Source of the DNA: Lamprocystis purpurea DSM 4197
Lineage (GTDB): Bacteria; Pseudomonadota; Gammaproteobacteria; Chromatiales; Chromatiaceae
NCBI RefSeq assembly: GCF_000379525.1
Contig: NZ_KB902490.1
Location: forward strand, 1-59,555
Reading direction: 5' to 3'
Length of the DNA: 59,555 bases
Both the position numbers and the translations under genes were made by a program. A model generated the notes under the pieces. It was not told the DNA's origin and ran no database searches. It was given only the letters and a program-made list of their open reading frames with translations. Below, piece by piece: positions 9,454 to 19,080 of this stretch (positions within the stretch are counted from its first letter, which is position 1; the number at the start of each line of letters is the position of its first letter).

Positions 9454-10971
9454 ATGCCATCGCTGTTGTCTCGCACGGTCTGGTCCTGGCTGCTGTCGGC
9501 AGCGCTTTTCCCGGTGCTGGCCGCGGCGGCCTGCGACCCCGGTCAGCGTCTCACGCTGCTCCACTTCAACGACTACCACGGTCAACTGGAGCCCTATGCC
9601 GACCCGCGGGACCACACTGAACGCGGCGGCATCGCCCGCCTCGCCGCCGTTGTCGCACAGATCCGCGGTGAGGACCCGCGCCCCGTCCTGCTGCTGTTCG
9701 GCGGCGACTTTCTGCAAGGCACCCTGACCTCCAGCCTGTTTCAGGGGATACCGGACCTGACCCTGTTCGGACGCATGGGAGTCGACGCCGCGGTCATGGG
9801 GAATCACGAACTGGACTACGGACAAGACACCTTTCGGCGTCTGGCCGGTCTGGCCCGGTTTCCGATCCTGACCGCGAATGTCGCGTCTCACCCGGACCCC
9901 CTGCCGGTGCGGCCTCAGGTGATCCTGGAACCGGCCGACGGACTCAAGGTCGGCGTCCTGGGCCTCACCAGCCCGGAACTGGCAACGGCCACGCACCCGC
10001 GCAACATGGACGGGATCAGTGTGGAGGAGCCGGTCACCGTCGCGCGGCGCCTGGTACCCGGATTACGGGAGCAGGCGGATCTGGTGGTGGTGCTGTCGCA
10101 CATGGGGATCACCGATGACCGCCGCCTGGCACAGTCCGTCCCCGGCATCGACCTGATCGTCGGCGGTCACAACCACAACCTCTATGCCGAACCGGTCATG
10201 GAAGCCGGAGTGGCCATCGTTCAGGCCGGCGAACGCGGCGGCTGGCTGGGGCGCCTGGACCTGGAGTGCCGCGACGGCACGCTGTCACGCACCGGCTACA
10301 CCCTGATCCCGATCGACGCATCGAGTCCGGCCGACCCCGAGATCGCGGCAGAGGTGCAGCGCATCGCCGCGTCGGCCAACCAGGAGATGGATCAGGAAGT
10401 CGGCACCAGCGCCCGCGAACTCAGCGCCTGGCGTGAACTGATCCGGCGCGAAGAGGCGCCCTTCGGCGACTTCCTCGCCGACCAGGCGCGGGAAATCACC
10501 CTGGCCGACGTCGCCCTATTCAACGCCGGGGGATTTCGCTCCAGCATCCCGGCGGGTCGCGTCACGCTCAAGGCCATCTACCAGGCCTTTCCGTTTCGCA
10601 ACGAACTGGTGGTGGGCGACATCACCGGCGCCCAGTTGCTCGCTGCATTGCAACGCAGCGCCGCCCTGGACCCGGCGGACAATCACGGCGCCTTCCTGCA
10701 AGTCTCCGGCCTGCACTATGTGATCGCCGGTGATCAACTCGAATCCGCCACCCTGGGCGACGCACCCATCGACCCGACCCGCCGTTACCGGGTGGTGACC
10801 TCCGATTTTCTGGCCGCCGGCGGTGACGGTTACGCCATGCTCATGGCGATGGAGAACCAGGTCATGACCGGCCGCCTGATCTCCGACATGGTCATCGAGG
10901 CCTTCCGCGGCGGCGCACCGGTGGATCCGCGCACCGACGGACGCATTGTGCGGCGCGCGGCGCGACCTTGA
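9454..10971 (+). CDS. Periplasmic 5'-nucleotidase / UshA-type metallophosphoesterase
   Basis: The 505-residue protein has a Sec signal peptide (about 1-25, cleavage near AAA-ACDP) and the two-domain 5'-nucleotidase architecture. The metallophosphoesterase domain shows LLHFNDYHGQ, GGDFLQGT, MGNHELDYG and VGGHNHN metal-binding motifs. A C-terminal nucleotidase domain follows from about residue 320 (LFNAGGFRSSIPAG, TSDFLAAGGDGY). It probably hydrolyses extracellular nucleotides or UDP-sugars to salvage phosphate and nucleosides. SoxB shares this fold, but no Sox context is present. A GGAG sits six bases before the ATG. Confidence 0.87.
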   Translation: MPSLLSRTVWSWLLSAALFPVLAAAACDPGQRLTLLHFNDYHGQLEPYADPRDHTERGGIARLAAVVAQIRGEDPRPVLLLFGGDFLQGTLTSSLFQGIPDLTLFGRMGVDAAVMGNHELDYGQDTFRRLAGLARFPILTANVASHPDPLPVRPQVILEPADGLKVGVLGLTSPELATATHPRNMDGISVEEPVTVARRLVPGLREQADLVVVLSHMGITDDRRLAQSVPGIDLIVGGHNHNLYAEPVMEAGVAIVQAGERGGWLGRLDLECRDGTLSRTGYTLIPIDASSPADPEIAAEVQRIAASANQEMDQEVGTSARELSAWRELIRREEAPFGDFLADQAREITLADVALFNAGGFRSSIPAGRVTLKAIYQAFPFRNELVVGDITGAQLLAALQRSAALDPADNHGAFLQVSGLHYVIAGDQLESATLGDAPIDPTRRYRVVTSDFLAAGGDGYAMLMAMENQVMTGRLISDMVIEAFRGGAPVDPRTDGRIVRRAARP

Positions 10972-11050
10972 TCATCGTGCCGACCGGCCATGAGGGAACT
11001 TGAACTGTCCCAGTCGTTGAGCAGCGCGCGCGGGAGAGCACGGTTTTCTC

Positions 11051-11079
11051 TTGACAAACACATTGCAAACGCGGATAAA
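11051..11079 (+). promoter_or_regulatory. Sigma-70-type promoter of the RiPP cluster
   Basis: A perfect -35 hexamer TTGACA (11051-11056) is separated by 17 bases from GATAAA (11074-11079), a 4-of-6 match to the -10 consensus. It is oriented toward the precursor gene. It implies a 5' untranslated leader of roughly 110 nt before ATG 11197. It is the clearest vegetative promoter in the window. Confidence 0.65.
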
Positions 11080-11196
11080 TTCCGGTAGGAGCCTTGCCCT
11101 GCCAAGTGTATGAAGGGTCATTGGGAGGTGATTCCACGCGATAGCCTAAGTTTTGCCCGATCAAACTTCCGATTCGTGATTTCCGGGAGAAATGCC

Positions 11197-11349
11197 ATGA
11201 ACGCAAACACTGAGCAAACCACCAACACCACCGCCGAAGCAAAGCTGCCTTACGAACCGCCCACGGCGACTTTGGTCACCCGTGAGCAGGAGGATCGGCT
11301 GTTGGGGCCGGGTAATTTCCCCGGTAACGGAGTCCCCTGCGGCTGCTGA
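11197..11349 (+). CDS. Putative RiPP precursor peptide (50 residues)
   Basis: The small gene directly precedes a PqqD-like protein and a radical SAM/SPASM enzyme. The leader-like N-terminus (1-36) is polar and contains KLPYEPPTATLV (16-27). Its Y19-x2-P22 pattern resembles the leader motif read by PqqD-type recognition domains in several RiPP classes. The C-terminal 14 residues (37-50), GPGNFPGNGVPCGC, are rich in Gly, Pro and Asn, have two Cys and end at CGC, and form the likely core. A GGGAGA ribosome site precedes ATG 11197. The frame is open back to 11110, but that segment is probably leader RNA. The modification cannot be predicted from sequence. I do not recognise a named family. Confidence 0.72.
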   Translation: MNANTEQTTNTTAEAKLPYEPPTATLVTREQEDRLLGPGNFPGNGVPCGC

Positions 11350-11374
11350 GTCCACTGCCGCTTCACGTCGACCT

Positions 11375-11650
11375 GTGCAATACTTTAAGCGCTCCAATGA
11401 CTTCATCATGCGGAACGTCGGCGGCGAAAGCTTGCTTGTGCCGCTTGGCACGCGCGTCGTTGCTGTGAATGGCGTGATCGTCCTGAATGGCACGGCGCGC
11501 TGCGTGTGGGAACTCCTGGCGCAAGAACGCTCCTTGGACGAACTCGCCGCCGCCGTGGCGGAGCGCTTTACGGTGGATGTTGAGCACGCCCGTATCGATG
11601 TGCAACGGTTCCTCGACGAGATCGGCCGGATGCGCGCCCTGCAACCATGA
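11375..11650 (+). CDS. PqqD-like RiPP recognition element protein
   Basis: The 91-residue protein matches the PqqD family, with YFKRSNDFIMRNVGGESLLV, the GVIVLNGTARCVWELL helix and a C-terminal helix ending in RFLDEIGRM. Stand-alone PqqD proteins bind the leader of a precursor peptide and hand it to a radical SAM enzyme. The GTG at 11375 is chosen because it gives the family's N-terminus; ATG 11408 would cut off its first strand. It lies 25 bp after the precursor stop and overlaps the radical SAM gene by ATGA (11647-11650). Confidence 0.85.
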   Translation: MQYFKRSNDFIMRNVGGESLLVPLGTRVVAVNGVIVLNGTARCVWELLAQERSLDELAAAVAERFTVDVEHARIDVQRFLDEIGRMRALQP

Positions 11651-12708
11651 CCGTGCTCCCGACCGACTATGGCGCACTGCTTCGGGAGTTGCAACGGCGC
11701 GCCGCCTCGATGCGCCAGCCGGTGAGCGGCGTGTTTGAATTGACGGAACGCTGCAATCTGTCTTGTCGCATGTGTTATGTCCGCCATGACGCCCGTGATA
11801 CGGCGCAACGCTCAAAGGAGTTGTCCAGCGCGCAGTGGCTTACGCTTGCACAGGACGCCGTGGACAATGGCATGGTCTTTCTGCTGCTGACCGGCGGCGA
11901 AGTTTTTTTGCGTCCCGATTTCTTCGAGATTTACATACCGCTTACGCGGTTGGGTCTCATTCTCACGATTTACACCAACGGCACCCTCATCACCGACGGC
12001 ATTGCGCAACGCTTGGCGGAAGCCGCCCCGAGCCTCACTGAAATCACGCTCTATGGCAGCACTGCTGCCGCCTACGAAGCGGTCACGGGTTGTCCGGGCA
12101 GTTACGCGCGCGCCTGCGCTGGAATTGAAGCGCTCCTCAAGCAGGGCATTCCGTTCGGACTCAAGACCACGATCACGCGGCAAAATGTCGGTGAATTGGA
12201 AGCGATGCGGCAGATGGCGCGCCAGTGGGGCGTGCCGTTTTCAGGGGCTTGGCTGCTCTCGCGGCGGCGCGATGGCCATTCTTCCGATGTTGAATACTGC
12301 CGTCTGTCCGCGCAGGATTGCGTCAACCTCGAAGCCACCGACCAGGTCTCGGCCGACGAGTGGCTCGAAACCGCATTCCGCGAATCATCCGTCAAGAGTG
12401 ATGCCAATTTCTACTGCCAAGCCGGCAAGACCGCATTTGTCATTCATTCTTCCGGCGCGATGAGCCCCTGCCTGACGTTGTCTCAACCCGCGGCCCGTCC
12501 GCTCGCCAGCGGTTTTCGCACGGCCTGGGAAGGCGTGCAGCGCTTTGTCGACGAGGCACCGCCACCGGACTCCGCCTGCCTTGCCTGCGACGCGCGACGC
12601 TATTGCCCGCGCTGCCCGGCGTGGTCGTCGATGGAAACCGGCACATTGACCGACGCGGTGCCCTATCTATGTGAGATCGCCCGTCTGCGCAAAGCGCGTT
12701 ACGAGTGA
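11647..12708 (+). CDS. Radical SAM/SPASM peptide maturase
   Basis: The 353-residue enzyme carries the AdoMet-cluster motif CNLSCRMC (residues 36-43). It also has the TGGEVFLRPDF segment typical of this class. Its C-terminus is a textbook SPASM domain for auxiliary Fe-S clusters: C-x12-G-x4-C (CQAG...SPC, about 258-276), then C-x2-C-x5-C-x2-C (CLACDARRYCPRC) and a final C in YLCEIARL. Together with the adjacent PqqD-like protein and Cys-tailed peptide, this indicates radical modification of a ribosomal peptide (thioether, C-C link or epimerisation are possible). It is translationally coupled to the PqqD gene. No protease or exporter is adjacent. Confidence 0.88.
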   Translation: MTVLPTDYGALLRELQRRAASMRQPVSGVFELTERCNLSCRMCYVRHDARDTAQRSKELSSAQWLTLAQDAVDNGMVFLLLTGGEVFLRPDFFEIYIPLTRLGLILTIYTNGTLITDGIAQRLAEAAPSLTEITLYGSTAAAYEAVTGCPGSYARACAGIEALLKQGIPFGLKTTITRQNVGELEAMRQMARQWGVPFSGAWLLSRRRDGHSSDVEYCRLSAQDCVNLEATDQVSADEWLETAFRESSVKSDANFYCQAGKTAFVIHSSGAMSPCLTLSQPAARPLASGFRTAWEGVQRFVDEAPPPDSACLACDARRYCPRCPAWSSMETGTLTDAVPYLCEIARLRKARYE

Positions 12709-12741
12709 AAACACGTGGTGGTGCCCTGACCGCCAGGCCGG

Positions 12742-13236
12742 TCAATCCGGCACTCGCGGGATCCGGCGCATGTGCACCGCCGCCAACCACTCGGACAAAT
12801 ATCCAAGCGCGGCACCCAGATTCCGCTCGGCACCCGGCGACAACCCGGCGCCGAGGTCGAACGCATAACCGCGGATCGCCAGCAACCGGCAGTCCGGCAA
12901 CGGGCCGCCGATAACCTGGGCGTAGACCCGCAGCAGCGCGCCGGGCCTCATGGCATGGGTGGTGATGGTGAGCGCCGGCTCCTGGATCACGGGTCCGAAG
13001 GTGAATGGCTCCGCTCCACTGAGGGCGGCATCGACAAAGACCACGCGCTTGCGGCCATCCAGGTCCAGTACGTGCTCGATCTGAAGCTGGAAATCGGTCA
13101 GCAAATCGAACGCCTGATCTGGGACCGTGCGGGCTGCACGCATCGCGCTCAGGCGTTCGATCAGGGTGGGGCCGAGCGCATCGTCGCCGCGCGAGGGGTT
13201 ACCGCAGGCTATAATTAATGTATTCGGAACGGACAT
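12742..13236 (-). CDS. hoxW: [NiFe]-hydrogenase maturation endopeptidase (HoxW-like)
   Basis: The 164-residue protease cleaves the C-terminal extension of the hydrogenase large subunit after Ni insertion. Family signatures are LIIACGNPSRGDDALG near the N-terminus with the metal-binding Asp, FVDAAL in the middle, and TTHAMRPGALL with the second ligand. Its natural partner is HoxH in this window, which retains a 38-residue extension. ATG 13236 overlaps head-to-head with the ATG of the next gene (13235). The frame is open upstream to 13410, but that part is antisense to the HTH gene. It is convergent with the RiPP cluster. Confidence 0.87.
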   Translation of the reverse strand: MSVPNTLIIACGNPSRGDDALGPTLIERLSAMRAARTVPDQAFDLLTDFQLQIEHVLDLDGRKRVVFVDAALSGAEPFTFGPVIQEPALTITTHAMRPGALLRVYAQVIGGPLPDCRLLAIRGYAFDLGAGLSPGAERNLGAALGYLSEWLAAVHMRRIPRVPD

Positions 13237-13597
13237 GGCGCAATCAATCTTGAGGACAGTGACCCTTGATGTTCGACCGCCCAGTGAGACAATGGCCGAG
13301 TTCTCCCAGGATTGGAAGACGGGTAAGGCATCGACCACAGACCGCATCTCATTCGCCTCTCCAGAACTGCTGCGGAAGGTGCTCACGGCCAAGCGATGGG
13401 AACTACTCAAGGTGCTCTGCGGCGCCCGCCCAGTGACAGTTCACGAGGCAGCGCGTCGCGTCGGGCGTGATGTCAAGGCAGTACACACCGATTTATCGGC
13501 TCTACTCTCCGCCGGCGTTCTTGTGCGCACCGCGGCAGGACAAGTCGAGTTTCCCTACGAGGCCGTCAAGGTCGAGTTCTTGTTGCAGGCAGTATGA
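13235..13597 (+). CDS. HVO_A0114-family HTH protein, antitoxin-like (TumA-type)
   Basis: The 120-residue protein has an N-terminal SILRTVTLDV strand, the block FASPELLRKVLTAKRWELLK and a winged helix (VHEAARRVGRDVKAVHTDL, ending VEFPYEAVKVEF). This matches the HVO_A0114 putative DNA-binding family. Such proteins are often the antitoxin paired with an upstream TumE-like toxin, but here the upstream DNA is hoxW antisense, so no toxin is present. The gene appears orphaned at an island edge. ATG 13235 fits the family N-terminus; ATG 13292 is a shorter alternative. Confidence 0.7.
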   Translation: MAQSILRTVTLDVRPPSETMAEFSQDWKTGKASTTDRISFASPELLRKVLTAKRWELLKVLCGARPVTVHEAARRVGRDVKAVHTDLSALLSAGVLVRTAAGQVEFPYEAVKVEFLLQAV

Positions 13598-14018: not shown

Positions 14019-14466
14019 CCATGAATCTGGCCCCGCAGCGGCGTGGCCAGGGAGTCGTGACTGCGCTGGTTCCCATCGCGACACCAAGGCTCTCTCGCCA
14101 CCCTGGACCGGCCCGCCCGCGGCCTTGACAGGCCTGCGCTCGCGCTCGCCCGCACTTCGGAAAATGATCTACAATTGACACACAATCGCCTGATTGCCCG
14201 CCCTGCGGCCCCCCTCGGTTGCCAGGTTGGTACGCCTCACCGACGGCCTTCCCAGTGCTGACATGCCGCCCGGCACCGGCCGGCGACCCGGGCCTCGGAG
14301 ATACAATACTTCTCTACAGACGGCCGCGCCAGCCGGGGTACCGTGCCAGGATCGGATGAGTCAAACAACCGTTTATCCGTCGAGCGTGCCAGGCGCCGTG
14401 CCACGACCGGGGATCAGCGCGGCGCGCAGGATAGACGTTAGTCGTTAGGTCCACCAAGGAAAGCAT
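14019..14466. other. Intergenic DNA upstream of the accessory gene pair
   Basis: These 448 bases hold no recognisable gene. Base composition changes from GC-rich to clearly AT-richer at about 14440. A ribosome site AAGGA precedes the ATG at 14467. I see no clear attachment site. Confidence 0.4.
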
Positions 14467-15409
14467 ATGAAAAACCGAGGGGAATTTATCGTATTCCGTT
14501 ATTCGCTAGTCGAAGAAGCGCAACAAGCGTTAATCGTTGAGCCGCTTCCAGACCCGAAAGGCGAAGCAGTTACGTTTGCATTGCTTGGAGATCCTGAATT
14601 TTCCCGAAACAATGTCTCGTATGCATTTGTCGGGTTTTCCCGAGTTATTCCTACTCCGCTTTTTCGTTTCCAGGAGAATCGATATCTTGCCGGAAAAGTT
14701 GCAAAATTGCGCAAGGCCCAAGTACACGAGAAAATACCAGGGGATATTATTGAGCACGAAGCGGACGACTGGGTCCCGCTCGTAGCAATATTTGATCTAT
14801 TTGAACAGTATATTTTCGTGCAGCGCGAATTGGAAATTTGGGACAGAGACTCAAGTTGCTAACGCGATCCAAACCGGACTGCGAGAGCCTGTCCTAGCCA
14901 AATATAATCACAGATTGTTTGTGGAGCCTAAGACCCGGACTGAGGATTTTTGGTCGGTGGTCGAAACACATAACCGAATCTACAAGTTAGAGATTCGCCT
15001 TATCTCTCCTAATATACTGCGAACAAACGAAAAAGCACGAGAGGCGTTAGAGGAATTGAAAAGACTCTATGGCCAAGACGAAATCGCTCTGACGCTTGAG
15101 AACGAGTCAGGGAATTTGCGGATTCCTAAGATACCCATAGCTGATTACATTGACTATGCTGCAGAGGGAGAAGGTAAATGGACACTAATAACTGAAGGCG
15201 CTAAAGGAGGAAAGAAAAAGCACACGAGCGACAAAGCAGCAATCACATTAGACTTACCTATTCCGTCCGAAGACGAAATTCATAACGAAGGACAATTGGA
15301 ACTCGAAACGGGCATTCCCGCACCTGGACGAGGCGCAAGTGACGCACAACTCGTTGCAGAGTTGTTGGAAGAAGCTAACGCCCTAGAAAAGTCCCCGAGC
15401 CGTGGTTAG
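14467..15409 (+). pseudogene. DUF4747-like protein gene interrupted by a frameshift
   Basis: Two frames join into one protein of about 313 residues. The first (from 14467) reads through MKNRGEFIVFRYSLVEEA and FRFQENRYLAGKVAKLRK to YIFVQR, then drifts to a stop at 14862. The second resumes as WKFGTETQVANAIQTGL and runs to 15409. Removing one A in GAATTGG near 14828-14831 restores QRDWKFGT, so a single-base insertion explains the break. The protein resembles what I remember of DUF4747, without certainty. Sequence is markedly AT-richer than neighbours, suggesting recent acquisition. It is either a new pseudogene or an assembly indel. The end overlaps the next gene by 8 bp. Confidence 0.65.
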
Positions 15410-15896
15410 ATTCATACTTGTTTTCTGCCTAGCATTCAGTATTTCGCTATTTGGTGCGTTCTACGCAGGCAATGTCGCTAAGTCGGTATTCGAGGATTTG
15501 CTGTCTTCGTTTACAGTACTCGCGATGATTACCGGAACGGTCTCTTATGCTCTATATGCCTACGTCGACACGATAACTAAAGATGTCGCAGGTGACAAGA
15601 AAACATGTGCGCACGAAAGCTATCGCGCTGCTATCGACAAGCTATCCGATCTAAAACAAGAGATTATTGTAAATGCGTTTGCGGTCGTTGTATTATTGAT
15701 CATAGAGCAGCTTGCGCACAGCATTTCTTTAGCGTTTCCAACCAGCCCAGCGGAGCCTTTCAACTGGTACTGGGCGGCCCTTTTCTCCATAAGGATGGCT
15801 TGCTTTTCCAGCAGCGTCTTAATTGTCGTAATCCAGTTCCATGCGTTTATTGTCGCGAGCGATTACCGTCGCGTTATTAGCAGAAAAGGGCCGTAG
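15402..15896 (+). CDS. Four-helix membrane protein, unknown function
   Basis: The 164-residue protein starts at GTG 15402, overlapping the preceding gene. It has hydrophobic segments at about 3-24, 36-54, 87-105 and 122-150. The loop between helices 2 and 3 is charged and Lys-rich (KDVAGDKKTC...KLSDLKQE). I do not recognise a family. The overlap with the frameshifted gene and shared low GC imply a two-gene unit with a cytosolic protein and a membrane partner, an arrangement common among phage-defence modules. That role is inference only. Confidence 0.6.
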   Translation: MVRFILVFCLAFSISLFGAFYAGNVAKSVFEDLLSSFTVLAMITGTVSYALYAYVDTITKDVAGDKKTCAHESYRAAIDKLSDLKQEIIVNAFAVVVLLIIEQLAHSISLAFPTSPAEPFNWYWAALFSIRMACFSSSVLIVVIQFHAFIVASDYRRVISRKGP

Positions 15897-16008
15897 GCCG
15901 TAGGCCGCAGGATGGCCTGAGGAACGAACCCCAACATTTCAAGACTCAGATCTCATTGCGGAACGAATTCAAGAAAGCGCCCAACAATCTCGTGGAGAAT
16001 ATCAACCA

Positions 16009-16449
16009 ATGCGACTTTACTTGGACATGTGTTGTCTACAGCGACCAATGGACGACCAAACGCACCTTCGTATTCATATGGAATCTGAGGCCATTCTTGG
16101 CGTGTTGGCTTGGTGCGAAGCGGGAAAGGCAGACTTGCTGAATTCAGTCGCGTTGAGTTACGAAGTCGACCATAACCCGCACCCAGCAAGAAAAGCCTTT
16201 GTTCAAGAAGCCTTGCTGAATAGCAAGCAATTTATTCACACATCGGATTCAGTAAAACAACTGGCCCGCGGATACTGTGATCATGGAATTAAAGCATTAG
16301 ATGCTTTGCATCTGGCCTGTGCTGTGGAAGCACAAGCACATTATTTCTGTACATGCGATGATCGCTTGTATCGGCGGGCTAAACAGCTAGATAGCAAACA
16401 AACGCTGGTTGTCTTTCCGCTGGAACTTGTTGAGATGATTGAACCATGA
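16009..16449 (+). CDS. PIN-domain ribonuclease, VapC-like toxin
   Basis: The 146-residue protein has the PIN-fold acidic residues: Asp6 in RLYLDMCC, a Glu in MESEAIL (25/27), Asp98 in KALDALHLACA and Asp117/118 in CTCDDRLY. PIN toxins cleave RNA, often initiator tRNA or rRNA. Its stop overlaps the next small gene by ATGA (16446-16449), which suggests a toxin-first toxin-antitoxin operon. Codon use is AT-richer than the chromosomal genes around it. An upstream 113-bp gap holds a short CCGTAGG direct repeat near 15891. Confidence 0.8.
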   Translation: MRLYLDMCCLQRPMDDQTHLRIHMESEAILGVLAWCEAGKADLLNSVALSYEVDHNPHPARKAFVQEALLNSKQFIHTSDSVKQLARGYCDHGIKALDALHLACAVEAQAHYFCTCDDRLYRRAKQLDSKQTLVVFPLELVEMIEP

Positions 16450-16667
16450 GCGTACCTGCAAAGTCTTTAACTGATATTACCAATCAAGCCATTCATGTGC
16501 TTTCCAGAGAAATTGGTGCCGCTGATACCATGCGTTTTTTAAGTCAATTCTCTACAGGCAGTGGAAACTATACTGAGGAACGAGCCGCACTTTTTGACCA
16601 TTTGACATTGGACGAAGTTCTTGCCGAAATTAGGGAGAAACATGGCGACAAAAAGCAAGCCGGATAG
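16446..16667 (+). CDS. Probable antitoxin partner of the PIN protein
   Basis: This 73-residue, mostly helical protein begins MSVPAKSLTDITNQAIHVLS and ends LTLDEVLAEIREKHGDKK. It has no Cys or membrane segment. It is assigned as antitoxin only from its 4-bp overlap with the PIN gene and its size. I do not see a ribbon-helix-helix or AbrB domain, and it is not a classical VapB. Confidence 0.55.
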   Translation: MSVPAKSLTDITNQAIHVLSREIGAADTMRFLSQFSTGSGNYTEERAALFDHLTLDEVLAEIREKHGDKKQAG

Positions 16668-16738
16668 GACAGCTTGGAAAAGCGATATGCTGAAAGCGTC
16701 CGTGTCGGGACCGAGTGCAGTCAACCAAGGTTGACCTC

Positions 16739-17545
16739 TCATTTCCGGATGATGACCAGATCATCCTGACTGGGAATCGTTGCCGGATAGATCAACCCCG
16801 GATATGTTGCATCCAGGTAATCGCTGATAAAAGCGTCGAGCCTGGCCGTATCGCAAGGGGCCGCGGACAATGGATTGAGGAGACACATTCTGAACAGGAC
16901 AAGCAGGTCTTCGCGAGTCGGCACCTGGTCCAGCGGGGTATCGATGGTATAGATGGTGACCTCCGCTTGTCGACCGGCCAGGGCCTGGTAAAAACGCGAC
17001 TCGTGGCAGCACGCGTGCAAGTCCAGATTGGTCGCCGCTTCGTCCCAGCGCCCTGCCGCCCGCTGGAATCCGATACCGATCAGCGCCATCGGGGCCGAGG
17101 GTTGATTGAGGATGATCGCCAAGTTTCCACCGGGCTTCAGCAGGGTCAGTGCCAACCGGATCTTTTCGCGAATATCATCGAGCCCGTTGAAGTGATACAG
17201 CACATGCGAGAGTGTTATCAGATCGAATCCCTGAGGATGATCAGTGGACACCCGATGCCGGGCAGATGCGCCCCAAGGGCACGCATACACATCGGTAGAC
17301 TTTTTCGTCAACACATCGCAACAGCGCGGATTCGGCTCCAGCAAAATGATCTGTTCGGCATAGGGCCGCATCAAGTCCGGTAAATGGCCTTGTCCGGCAC
17401 CAATGTCGAATATGGAAAAGCCGGCACGATACACGATGGGCAGCGCCCCTTTGTCCTGCAACTGCCGAACGGCTTCGCTATTTTGAAGTGAATAGCGATG
17501 AAACAGAGTGAGCGCTTGCTCAAAAACTTCATAATCCAATAGCAT
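16739..17545 (-). CDS. Class I SAM-dependent methyltransferase
   Basis: The 268-residue protein has methyltransferase motif I as IFDIGAGQGHLPDL (about 45-58), an acidic strand end IILLEPNP, and the post-II region FDLITLSHVLYHF followed by LKPGGNLAII. Substrate is unknown. It starts 32 bases after the hoxH stop on the same strand, so it could be read as the last gene of the hox operon. Equally it could be the edge of the accessory stretch, since its GC is intermediate. It is not one of the usual hydrogenase maturation proteins. Confidence 0.75.
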   Translation of the reverse strand: MLLDYEVFEQALTLFHRYSLQNSEAVRQLQDKGALPIVYRAGFSIFDIGAGQGHLPDLMRPYAEQIILLEPNPRCCDVLTKKSTDVYACPWGASARHRVSTDHPQGFDLITLSHVLYHFNGLDDIREKIRLALTLLKPGGNLAIILNQPSAPMALIGIGFQRAAGRWDEAATNLDLHACCHESRFYQALAGRQAEVTIYTIDTPLDQVPTREDLLVLFRMCLLNPLSAAPCDTARLDAFISDYLDATYPGLIYPATIPSQDDLVIIRK

Positions 17546-17577: not shown

Positions 17578-19080
17578 TCAGGAGTCAAGTACCAGCGCCC
17601 GCCCCAGGCTGCCATCCGGATGCCGGCAGAGACGGTCCAGCACCAAGCCCGCGGCGTCCTGTAATTCGATATCCAGGGGCATCCGCCCCAGGGCATGGGT
17701 GGCACAGGAGAGGCAGGGGTCATAGGCGCGAATCGCCACCTCGATCTGGTTCAGCAGCGGCTCGGTCAGTTCCCTGCCGCTCAGGTAATCGGCGGCCACC
17801 TGGCGAATCGCGGTGTTGATGGCCTGATTGTTGTTGGTCGTGGAGACGATGAGGTTGGCGCGCGTCACGAGTCCGTCTTCGTCGATCTCATAATGATGGA
17901 AGAGCGTGCCGCGGGGGGCCTCCACGACACCGATGCCCTTGCCATGCATCGCCCCGCGCAGACGCAAATCCGTACCCTGTAGATCCGGGTCCGAGAGCAG
18001 TTCGCGGATCCGCTCGGCGCAGTGCAGCAGTTCGATCACCCTGGCCCAGTGGGTGGCGAGCGCCGCCTGGAGCGGTCGGCCCTCACCGGCGGCGGCGAAG
18101 TCCTGACGTTCCTGCTCGGCCAGCGGGGTATGGAAACAATCGCAATTGTTGACGCGGGCGAGCGGTCCCACCCGGTACCAGCCGCGCTCCGGCCCCAGTT
18201 GTGTCAGGAAGGGAAATTTCATGTAGCTCCAGTCCTTGACTTCTTCCTGAATCAATTGCTCATAACCTGTGCAGTCCTGGTGATCCATGAGCGTGTCGCC
18301 GTTCGGGTCACGCACACGCAGGCCCCCGTCGTAAAGTTCTAAAGCCCCGTCCGGTCCGATCAGGCTCAGGGTGTTGGCATCCACTGCCCCGAACCGGTAG
18401 TGATACTCCGGGTTGCGCAGGATGATCCGTTTCATCAACTGGACCGCGCCCTCGGCCCAGTCGCACACCTGATCGATATCGGCCTGGAGCAGATCCCGCT
18501 CCTGTGCACTCACATGCTTATTGACCCCGCCGGGCAGCGCACCGGTGCCGTGGACCCGCTTGCCGGCGGTGATGCGGATCACCTCCTGTCCGAACTTCCG
18601 CAGCAACACACCCTGCTTCGCAATCTCCGGATGATCCTGGATCAAACCGACGATGTTGCGGTGAGCTACCGGGTCGTCGACACCGAACAACAGGTCCGGG
18701 GATGAGAGATGAAAGAAGTTCAGCGCGTGCGATTGCAGCACCTGCCCCAGATGCATGAGCCGCCGAACCTTCTCCGCGGTCGGGGTGAGCACATCGACAC
18801 CGACCAACTGATCACAGGCCTTGGCCGCCGCCAAATGATGGCTGACCGGGCAGATACCGCACAGGCGCTGGACCAGCACCGGCAACTCCCAATAGGGCCG
18901 GCCCTGGATGAACCGCTCGAACCCGCGAAACTCGACGACATGCAGCCGCGCCTGCCGCACGTGGTTGTCTTCATCCAACAGCAGGGTGACCTTGCCGTGC
19001 CCCTCGACCCGCGTCAGCGGCTCGATACAGACACGCTTCAAGGTCTCCGGATGGCGGGCGGTTTCAAGTGGATGGATCAT
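17578..19080 (-). CDS. hoxH: HoxH, [NiFe]-hydrogenase large subunit (NAD-linked, group 3d type)
   Basis: The 500-residue catalytic subunit binds the NiFe(CN)2CO centre. The N-terminal nickel ligands are Cys74 and Cys77 in RLCGICPVSHH. The C-terminal pair is Cys456 and Cys459 in DPCLSCATH. After His462 a 38-residue extension remains, to be removed by the maturation protease, which is encoded away at 12742-13236. The motif RVEGHGK near 24-30 is also conserved. It follows hoxY by 18 bp in the hoxF-U-Y-H order of soluble NAD-reducing hydrogenases. Confidence 0.95.
   Translation of the reverse strand: MIHPLETARHPETLKRVCIEPLTRVEGHGKVTLLLDEDNHVRQARLHVVEFRGFERFIQGRPYWELPVLVQRLCGICPVSHHLAAAKACDQLVGVDVLTPTAEKVRRLMHLGQVLQSHALNFFHLSSPDLLFGVDDPVAHRNIVGLIQDHPEIAKQGVLLRKFGQEVIRITAGKRVHGTGALPGGVNKHVSAQERDLLQADIDQVCDWAEGAVQLMKRIILRNPEYHYRFGAVDANTLSLIGPDGALELYDGGLRVRDPNGDTLMDHQDCTGYEQLIQEEVKDWSYMKFPFLTQLGPERGWYRVGPLARVNNCDCFHTPLAEQERQDFAAAGEGRPLQAALATHWARVIELLHCAERIRELLSDPDLQGTDLRLRGAMHGKGIGVVEAPRGTLFHHYEIDEDGLVTRANLIVSTTNNNQAINTAIRQVAADYLSGRELTEPLLNQIEVAIRAYDPCLSCATHALGRMPLDIELQDAAGLVLDRLCRHPDGSLGRALVLDS

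Follow-up and report, generated by a model that had tools for sequence, protein, structure and literature searches.

The window analyzed here, a 59,555-nucleotide stretch of Lamprocystis purpurea DSM 4197, carries a compact three-gene cassette on its forward strand. The first gene, an open reading frame (ORF) evident from the sequence, encodes a 50-residue precursor peptide (11197-11349; ATG at 11197, TGA at 11347-11349). The second (11375-11650; GTG at 11375, TGA at 11648-11650) encodes a stand-alone PqqD-like recognition element (RRE) for a ribosomally synthesized and post-translationally modified peptide (RiPP), identified by Pfam PF05402 (E 1e-14) and a structure model. The third (11647-12708; ATG at 11647, TGA at 12706-12708) encodes a 353-residue radical S-adenosylmethionine (SAM)/SPASM enzyme (Pfam PF04055, Radical_SAM, E 2e-18) whose start overlaps the PqqD stop in the sequence ATGA. 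The three ORFs are real, and the coordinates, the coupling and the CxxxCxxC plus SPASM cysteine pattern that a first-pass annotation had read from the letters alone all hold. The ten cysteines concerned, those of CxxxCxxC and seven of SPASM type (36, 40, 43, 257, 275, 311, 314, 320, 323 and 342), are invariant in 35/35 aligned enzymes (the window's and 34 hand-chosen relatives); a SPASM domain was not reported by the Pfam scan of the window enzyme.

The precursor has a leader of the form K-L-P-YEPP...EDRLL and a core that runs to the C-terminus as GPGNFPGNGVPCGC. Counted from the leader tyrosine, its core cysteines stand at Tyr+29 and Tyr+31, and its C-terminal residue is a cysteine. Comparison with a Methylococcaceae locus (L057) revealed 76, 75 and 78% identity for precursor, PqqD-like protein and enzyme, respectively, and fewer nonsynonymous than synonymous substitutions per site throughout (dN/dS of 0.14/0.32, 0.17/0.69 and 0.12/0.69), which together indicate that the gene set is more than a chance arrangement. 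Upstream of the precursor lies a promoter-like element (11051..11079, + strand), a perfect TTGACA with GATAAA standing 17 nt 3' of it. To call it a strong promoter, as had been done, was an overstatement, as a consensus promoter scan gave 0 sites against 0.5 expected despite the perfect TTGACA at 11051. L057 and its near-duplicate L058 have TTGACA-N16-GATAAT upstream of the precursor.

On sequence evidence, the cassette is part of an uncatalogued RRE-dependent radical SAM RiPP family, of which the window holds a reduced, register-shifted branch. The family is termed uncatalogued because the tested precursors are not recognized by NCBIfam or Pfam and because the enzyme's best NCBIfam matches lie below cut-off. 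The window precursor matched zero families in either collection; ten precursors of relatives gave 0/10 Pfam matches and one lone NCBIfam match at chance level (E 0.065). The window enzyme matched 68 NCBIfam families, the best 25 of which all fall far below cut-off, led by heme b synthase (120 of 500 bits); the earlier view that it belongs to no named RiPP class thus stands for these 25. Searches limited to open-licence PMC papers turned up no description of the family, and a search with the leader and core strings gave zero papers.

Relatives were sought in several collections. Among 141 other genomes taken as relatives, 19 matched the enzyme at E 1e-20 with 25-33% identity, and no close enzyme relative turned up in the seven further genomes of the genus included in the search. 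Across the Pseudomonadota, the single match at E 1e-28 (1/398) was the window's own genome. An alignment-based scan of genome contigs returned 343 stretches with 240 relatives. Among the 80 best, which were retained, 21 encode enzymes 44-79% identical to the window's. The titles of these 21 records list Methylococcaceae, Competibacter, Acidobacteriota, Armatimonadota, WOR-3, the Planctomycetes-Verrucomicrobia-Chlamydiae group, Bipolaricaulota, Desulfocapsa, Syntrophus, Anaerolineae, an archaeon and others. Searches of the phyla of L059 (33/347 genomes at E 1e-45, three close ones included) and L072 (8/291 at E 1e-65) each added two new relatives, which gave a set of 25 spanning the same identity range. 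Only already-known genomes were recovered from the order of L057 (2/251), the phylum of L065 (2/297) and the family of L060 (1/39). Each of 21 genomes checked had one enzyme match at E 1e-45. Besides L057/L058, the loci L072, L075 and L096 are near-duplicates. Single-sequence pattern scans of genome and viral contigs returned zero relatives; an alignment with two remote rows did recover relatives in genome contigs and, in viral contigs, six remote loci with other radical SAM genes, phage and plasmid collections gave enzyme matches of only 21-35% identity, and a precursor search in plasmids gave nothing useful. The distribution therefore appears sporadic over many phyla.

In all 25 relatives a PqqD gene lies directly upstream of the enzyme gene, and 24/25 have, upstream of PqqD, a YxxP precursor whose leader keeps the same register. 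This composition is that expected of an RRE-dependent radical SAM RiPP cluster and supports the first reading of the locus as an uncharacterized cluster of RiPP type. A PqqD/SAM pair without such a peptide, named at the outset as a finding that would tell against that reading, occurs once in the close set (L204) and often in remote loci of gut Bacillota. Two of the relatives were found after the pattern had been fixed: L203 fits it, with leader, Cys at Tyr+19, C-x-K, terminal Ser and kinase, and L204 fails on the precursor.

The precursor set comprises 28 peptides (the window's included, three loci giving two each), 25 of them non-redundant. Tyr and Pro+3 of YxxP were preconditions of the search, but the stretch from Tyr to the core aligns without gaps across all 28, and Val+8, Glu+13 and Arg+15 each recur in 23/25 non-redundant precursors. 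The first core cysteine is at Tyr+19 in 22/28, at Tyr+29 in five (the window, L057, L058, L059 and L062) and at Tyr+30 in L076 alone, whose enzyme frame is broken by stops. A lysine two residues past the proximal cysteine (C-x-K, Tyr+19..+21) is present in 18 of the 22 Cys+19 precursors, and a cysteine within Tyr+26..+33 in 27/28, the exception being L171b (Tyr+38). Three pairs of paralogues keep the leader (25/26, 21/26 and 20/26 identical positions) and change the core (5/19, 2/15 and 4/23, position by position); in L059 the core GNFPSSNSPCGDC is present as a tandem duplicate. A conserved leader with a hypervariable core is consistent with the usual RiPP signature, and because paralogues retain the one and change the other, a fixed cofactor is disfavored.

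The same comparison narrows what had been read into the window's core. The CGC tail is clade-specific, not a feature of the family, and exact only in the window, L057 and L058; L059 has CGDC, L062 has CGKGC, and 18/28 precursors carry C-x-K instead. Of the two Asn-Gly/Pro turns that had been pointed out, GN[FY]P recurs in 4/4 members of the window's clade, to which its aromatic residue is confined, but the second, 'NG', is not conserved there. In a quick-method tree of 65 rows, based on a selection of loci and without L076, which was too short, the window, L057, L058 and L059 (two Methylococcaceae and one Acidobacteriaceae besides the window) form one clade with a Shimodaira-Hasegawa-like approximate likelihood-ratio (SH-aLRT) support of 100, nested in a 23-row clade (96) that is mostly of the C-x-K type. 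The window clade lacks a cysteine at Tyr+19 and has one at Tyr+29 with another behind it (CGC, CGDC). Because it is nested among Cys+19 forms, it would have lost the proximal cysteine, retained the distal one and gained another after it. L062 lies outside the four-member clade, so that the Tyr+29 form may have arisen twice; nearby forks are poorly settled. At L062:959-1981, one precursor with the CGKGC core is flanked by two PqqD-like genes.

The structure model of the PqqD-like protein (predicted local distance difference test score, pLDDT, 89) has as its five top structural matches TbiB1 with bound lasso leaders, with template-modeling (TM) scores of 0.73-0.79. At the recognition step the protein thus resembles, in its predicted structure, a discrete B1-type lasso RRE, and leader binding is predicted. 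The enzyme model (pLDDT 91.9) has SkfB, BlsE, SuiB, PqqE and the anaerobic sulfatase-maturating enzyme (anSME) as its nearest solved folds by Foldseek E-value. SkfB is the best PDB match both by sequence and by Foldseek E-value, at 24% identity in the Foldseek alignment.

Many relatives have fuller clusters. Among the 23 relatives counted for cluster content, with names taken from Pfam and NCBIfam, 13 have an HprK-like kinase match adjoining the enzyme and 16 an S24-like peptidase match downstream; NTP_transf_5 and ABC-transporter matches are in the locus in 11 and five, respectively. None of these four gene kinds has a match in the window between 4001 and 22000, nor in L057, L058, L059, L066, L172, L074 (which ends at the enzyme) or L076 (which has 2 kb behind it). 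The absence of an adjacent exporter or protease, as first noted, is accordingly true of the window and not of the family, given the peptidase and transporter counts. The kinase matches zero Pfam models, and its HprK_rel_B match is below cut-off (29 of 200 bits); in the catalytic motif, H and K are present in 35/35 kinases and the full H-K-D-D in 24/35.

Precursors beside a kinase mostly end in serine. In the close clade (21 scorable), 12 loci have both kinase and terminal Ser, one has the kinase only (L062), two have the serine only (L075, L096) and six, the window among them, have neither (Fisher p 0.003). With remote members that have a precursor included (41), the corresponding counts are 28, 5, 2 and 6 (p 0.002); four remote Chloroflexota-type loci (L082, L083, L087 and L103) have a kinase and no terminal Ser. 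Loci at contig ends (L072, L074, L081, L088), the broken L076, the later finds L203 and L204 and Bacillota loci without a recognized precursor were left out. Only two independent pairs on the tree differ in the kinase (three on all branches), and with so few the association is suggestive only. The window, with no kinase match between 4001 and 22000 and a precursor ending in Cys, is not of the kinase-tailored type.

We favor, with moderate confidence, a reading in which the cassette makes a RiPP through an RRE-guided radical thioether on a core cysteine, most likely Tyr+29. The sequences show the gene set, the constant leader register, the variable cores, the cassette-free site in two congeners and, with few independent changes, the kinase/Ser association. 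The pathway itself is inferred: RRE binding, thioether chemistry, choice of acceptor residue, all tailoring, and the release and use of the product. The stand-alone lasso-type RRE would bind the YxxP leader of the 50-residue precursor and present the core to the SPASM enzyme, which would generate a 5'-deoxyadenosyl radical and abstract hydrogen from a core residue. A thioether would then be closed to a core cysteine, most likely Tyr+29 within PCG, to give a small ring in GPGNFPGNGVPCGC; the second cysteine (Tyr+31) could form another ring or stay free. In fuller clusters an HprK-type kinase would phosphorylate the C-terminal Ser, an S24-like peptidase would cut and NTP_transf_5 would decorate the product further. 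In the window clade, which has neither the genes of the fuller clusters nor the serine, a host protease would remove the leader.

Several points weigh against this reading. The thioether assignment and the acceptor residue rest on inference, and the fold comparison does not point to thioether formation in particular, because TM-scores are higher for SuiB (0.65-0.69) and anSME (0.64-0.68) than for SkfB (0.54). The cysteine near Tyr+29 shifts place, from +26 to +33 and once to +38, where a fixed ring would predict otherwise. L204 has no recognizable precursor in reach, although PqqD, enzyme, kinase and S24-like matches are present; its precursor may be encoded elsewhere. Many relatives lie on short contigs of metagenome-assembled genomes (MAGs), and some of their phylum labels may be binning errors. 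An N-x-x-C beta-thioether was considered and dropped because the distance from PC back to the nearest preceding Asn varies: -4 (window), -8 (L057) and -3 (L059).

The alternative that fares best, which we consider possible but rather unlikely, retains the same recognition and changes the radical chemistry: a C-C or C-O cross-link (on Phe/Tyr, Asn, or Lys in C-x-K relatives), epimerization or peptide-bond cleavage, with the cysteine pair left for a disulfide or a metal. SuiB forms a Lys-Trp link, PqqE a C-C bond, and EpeE is an epimerase; all three resemble the enzyme's fold to a similar degree and are within its 50 best Foldseek matches, and the lysine of C-x-K is kept in most Cys+19 precursors. 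Set against this, the near-constant cysteine around Tyr+29 is a core feature of the family, and the GN[FY]P aromatic residue is limited to the window clade. A pathway to a redox cofactor or for protein maturation, like those of PQQ and mycofactocin, with its product kept in the cell, is improbable. The window has no exporter, and a stand-alone PqqD with a SPASM enzyme is also found in those two systems, but the cores are hypervariable even between paralogues of one genome, one core is tandemly duplicated, the distribution is sporadic, and the enzyme scores only 74.3 of 381 bits for PqqE and 79.7 of 265 for MftC. The suggestion of a PQQ-like cofactor made at first has thus become less likely. 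It is similarly improbable that the three genes are the decaying or non-functional remnant of a horizontal transfer, on their way out after the kinase, peptidase and NTP_transf_5 genes: the lack of close enzyme relatives in the seven other genomes of the genus, the lack of tailoring genes between 4001 and 22000 of the window and the interrupted enzyme of the Syntrophus relative L076 would fit, but the window enzyme retains every invariant cysteine, each of the three genes has a dN smaller than its dS in the comparison with L057, and the reduced form is common to four genomes of one clade.

Lasso peptide clusters with a discrete RRE, such as those of paeninodin and pseudomycoidin, share with the family the YxxP leader, a lasso leader motif, and an RRE whose model is closest to TbiB1. 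Fuller relatives resemble these two clusters also in the HprK-like kinase beside precursors that mostly end in Ser and in the NTP_transf_5 gene. Passages of PMC9266682 on these systems describe PadeK as phosphorylating the precursor of paeninodin at its C-terminal Ser, and hexose addition in pseudomycoidin as requiring PsmN, a protein with a nucleotidyltransferase annotation; PsmN is likened here to NTP_transf_5 by annotation only. Unlike in lasso clusters, a radical SAM/SPASM enzyme stands where the lasso machinery would be: for the three cassette proteins, PqqD and Radical_SAM are the only Pfam models above cut-off, with no B2 peptidase or cyclase C among them. Unlike paeninodin-type clusters, the window clade has neither kinase nor C-terminal Ser. 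We therefore put forward, more tentatively than the ring chemistry itself, an unnamed RiPP class that may combine a lasso-type front end (YxxP, B1-type RRE) and back end (kinase for the C-terminal Ser, nucleotidyl or glycosyl transfer by NTP_transf_5) with a ring formed by a radical SAM/SPASM enzyme, not a lasso cyclase, on a cysteine set by register (Tyr+19, ~Tyr+29). The window would then be a stripped, mobile three-gene form, with its cysteine register shifted to Tyr+29/+31 and the phosphorylated tail dropped.

Other systems share single components. The SynChlorMet cassette (ScmA-F) has an HprK-type ScmC, a PqqD-related ScmD and the SPASM enzymes ScmE and ScmF, and its models match the family, but below cut-off: 89 (ScmF) and 88 (ScmE) of 400 bits for the window enzyme, 21 of 125 bits for the L062 kinase against ScmC, and 20-23 of 100 for the L062 PqqD proteins against ScmD. 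The sactipeptide maturases SkfB and AlbA are alike in that SkfB is the enzyme's best PDB match, but the RRE of the present family is a separate protein, and the window enzyme falls short of the sactisynthase models (AlbA 61.9/850, SkfB 50.5/300 and StsB 68.8/625 bits). Ranthipeptides (SCIFF, PapB) derive from Cys-rich precursors; the window core has two cysteines, no PapB/SCIFF model is among the enzyme's best 25 of 68 NCBIfam matches, and the remote relative L085 reaches 58.8 of 340 bits for PapB. The PqqD-like protein scores 27.2/46 bits for PqqD itself, and variable cores likewise set the family apart from PQQ and mycofactocin. A tight grouping with anSME, which would have spoken against a RiPP enzyme, was not found, although no similarity network was built: no anSME model is among those 25 matches, and anSME structures rank from ninth onward at 17-18% identity. 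Membership of the ACGX system was dropped (NCBIfam, 54 of 400 bits).

RRE-Finder (PMC7470986), in the passages concerned, counts about 300 RREs found by its discrete-lasso model beside radical SAM enzymes as false positives of that model and reports that they cluster with sacti- and ranthipeptide RREs; those passages say nothing of a precursor, a core pattern, a link to a kinase or a subfamily. The present family may belong among these RREs. If so, the pairs set aside in 2020 may hold a real class, and its precursor signature, YxxP...EERLxxC, would make it minable. Radical ring formation and phosphorylation of a C-terminal Ser would be joined in one pathway, a pairing that did not turn up in searches limited to open-licence PMC papers. 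The three-gene form would be a minimal radical RiPP cassette, seemingly moving between distant bacteria, and a convenient system in which to study how leader register sets which cysteine is modified.

At the same site in two congeners (G004 and G006), the flanks are only 350 and 313 bp apart, and the intervening DNA is dissimilar to the cassette; in the window this intergenic region is replaced by 1.8 kb (10961..12783) holding just the three genes. The left flank, with a nucleotidase gene, is 91-92% identical to that of the two congeners, and the right flank ~90%. Four more genomes, in which the right flank is unmatched, and one without a nucleotidase match are uninformative on the site. GC content at third codon positions is 71-76 in the three genes, lower than the 82 of the left flank and the 77-79 of the right, and in L057 the enzyme gene has 57% GC inside a 47% GC locus. 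Neither end of the cassette showed terminal repeats. The sporadic spread makes it likelier that the window gained the cassette than that the congeners lost it, and the cassette would have moved by horizontal transfer. The right-flank gene reads like a hydrogenase maturation protease, without a Pfam match; it is kept in the two congeners that lack the cassette, and a tie to hydrogenase genes is not favored.

Just right of the cassette flank lies a gene for an HVO_A0114-family protein (13127-13597; Pfam E 1e-24). The region 14400-16700, at ~44-50% GC within the 64% GC window, is probably a young island and contains a PIN-domain gene (16009-16449; Pfam E 8e-6). Immediately behind the nickel-dependent hydrogenase gene (17578-19080) stands a gene of lower GC (16739-17545, - strand) that is class I methyltransferase-like by Pfam.

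Loci from the window's GTDB family looked, on inspection by eye, like other systems, and a check of L003-L021 (1.5 kb flanks) for YxxP-plus-Cys ORFs showed no such peptide. A radical SAM/SPASM gene on the Ca. Thiodictyon syntrophicum plasmid (L047, and L014 at G007:C2:65271-69317) has an N-terminal part that looks PqqD-like and sits beside a second radical SAM gene; its product shares only 23% identity with the window enzyme but has a comparable SPASM end, CPRC...ETG, and a PqqD family chaperone is named in the record of the plasmid. In L038, L039 and L040, of the same GTDB family, an ORF of 310-604 residues, a PqqD-sized gene (88-97 residues) and a radical SAM gene lie in a row, an arrangement similar to that of the HPr-rel-A kind. 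In L043, L042 and L044, from other species of the genus, PqqD-like genes lie near genes that look lasso-like by eye (the start of an asparagine-synthetase-like protein).

Farther out, gut Bacillota loci among L086-L136 encode enzymes ~29-36% identical to the window's, mostly without a YxxP precursor, often with a kinase-like match directly preceding the enzyme and with PqqD downstream; they appear to be a related but different system. In remote branches of Acidobacteriota, Aminicenantes and others (L084, L085, L089, L091, L094, L099, L132, L173-L175, L179 and L180), the precursor is downstream of the enzyme and has CK, additional cysteines and a Ser at its end, mostly as GS, with a kinase match at the locus. 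The Syntrophus MAG locus (L076:7001-7600), in which the enzyme frame is interrupted and the precursor has a single Cys, appears to be in decay, unless the assembly is at fault. In L057, precursor and PqqD are separated by a palindrome-rich spacer of 255 bp (L057:5190-5444; folding z-score -4.6), against only 25 bp in the window; it holds a perfect ACGCCCCACC/GGTGGGGCGT hairpin, for which an attenuator and a repeat element are candidates.

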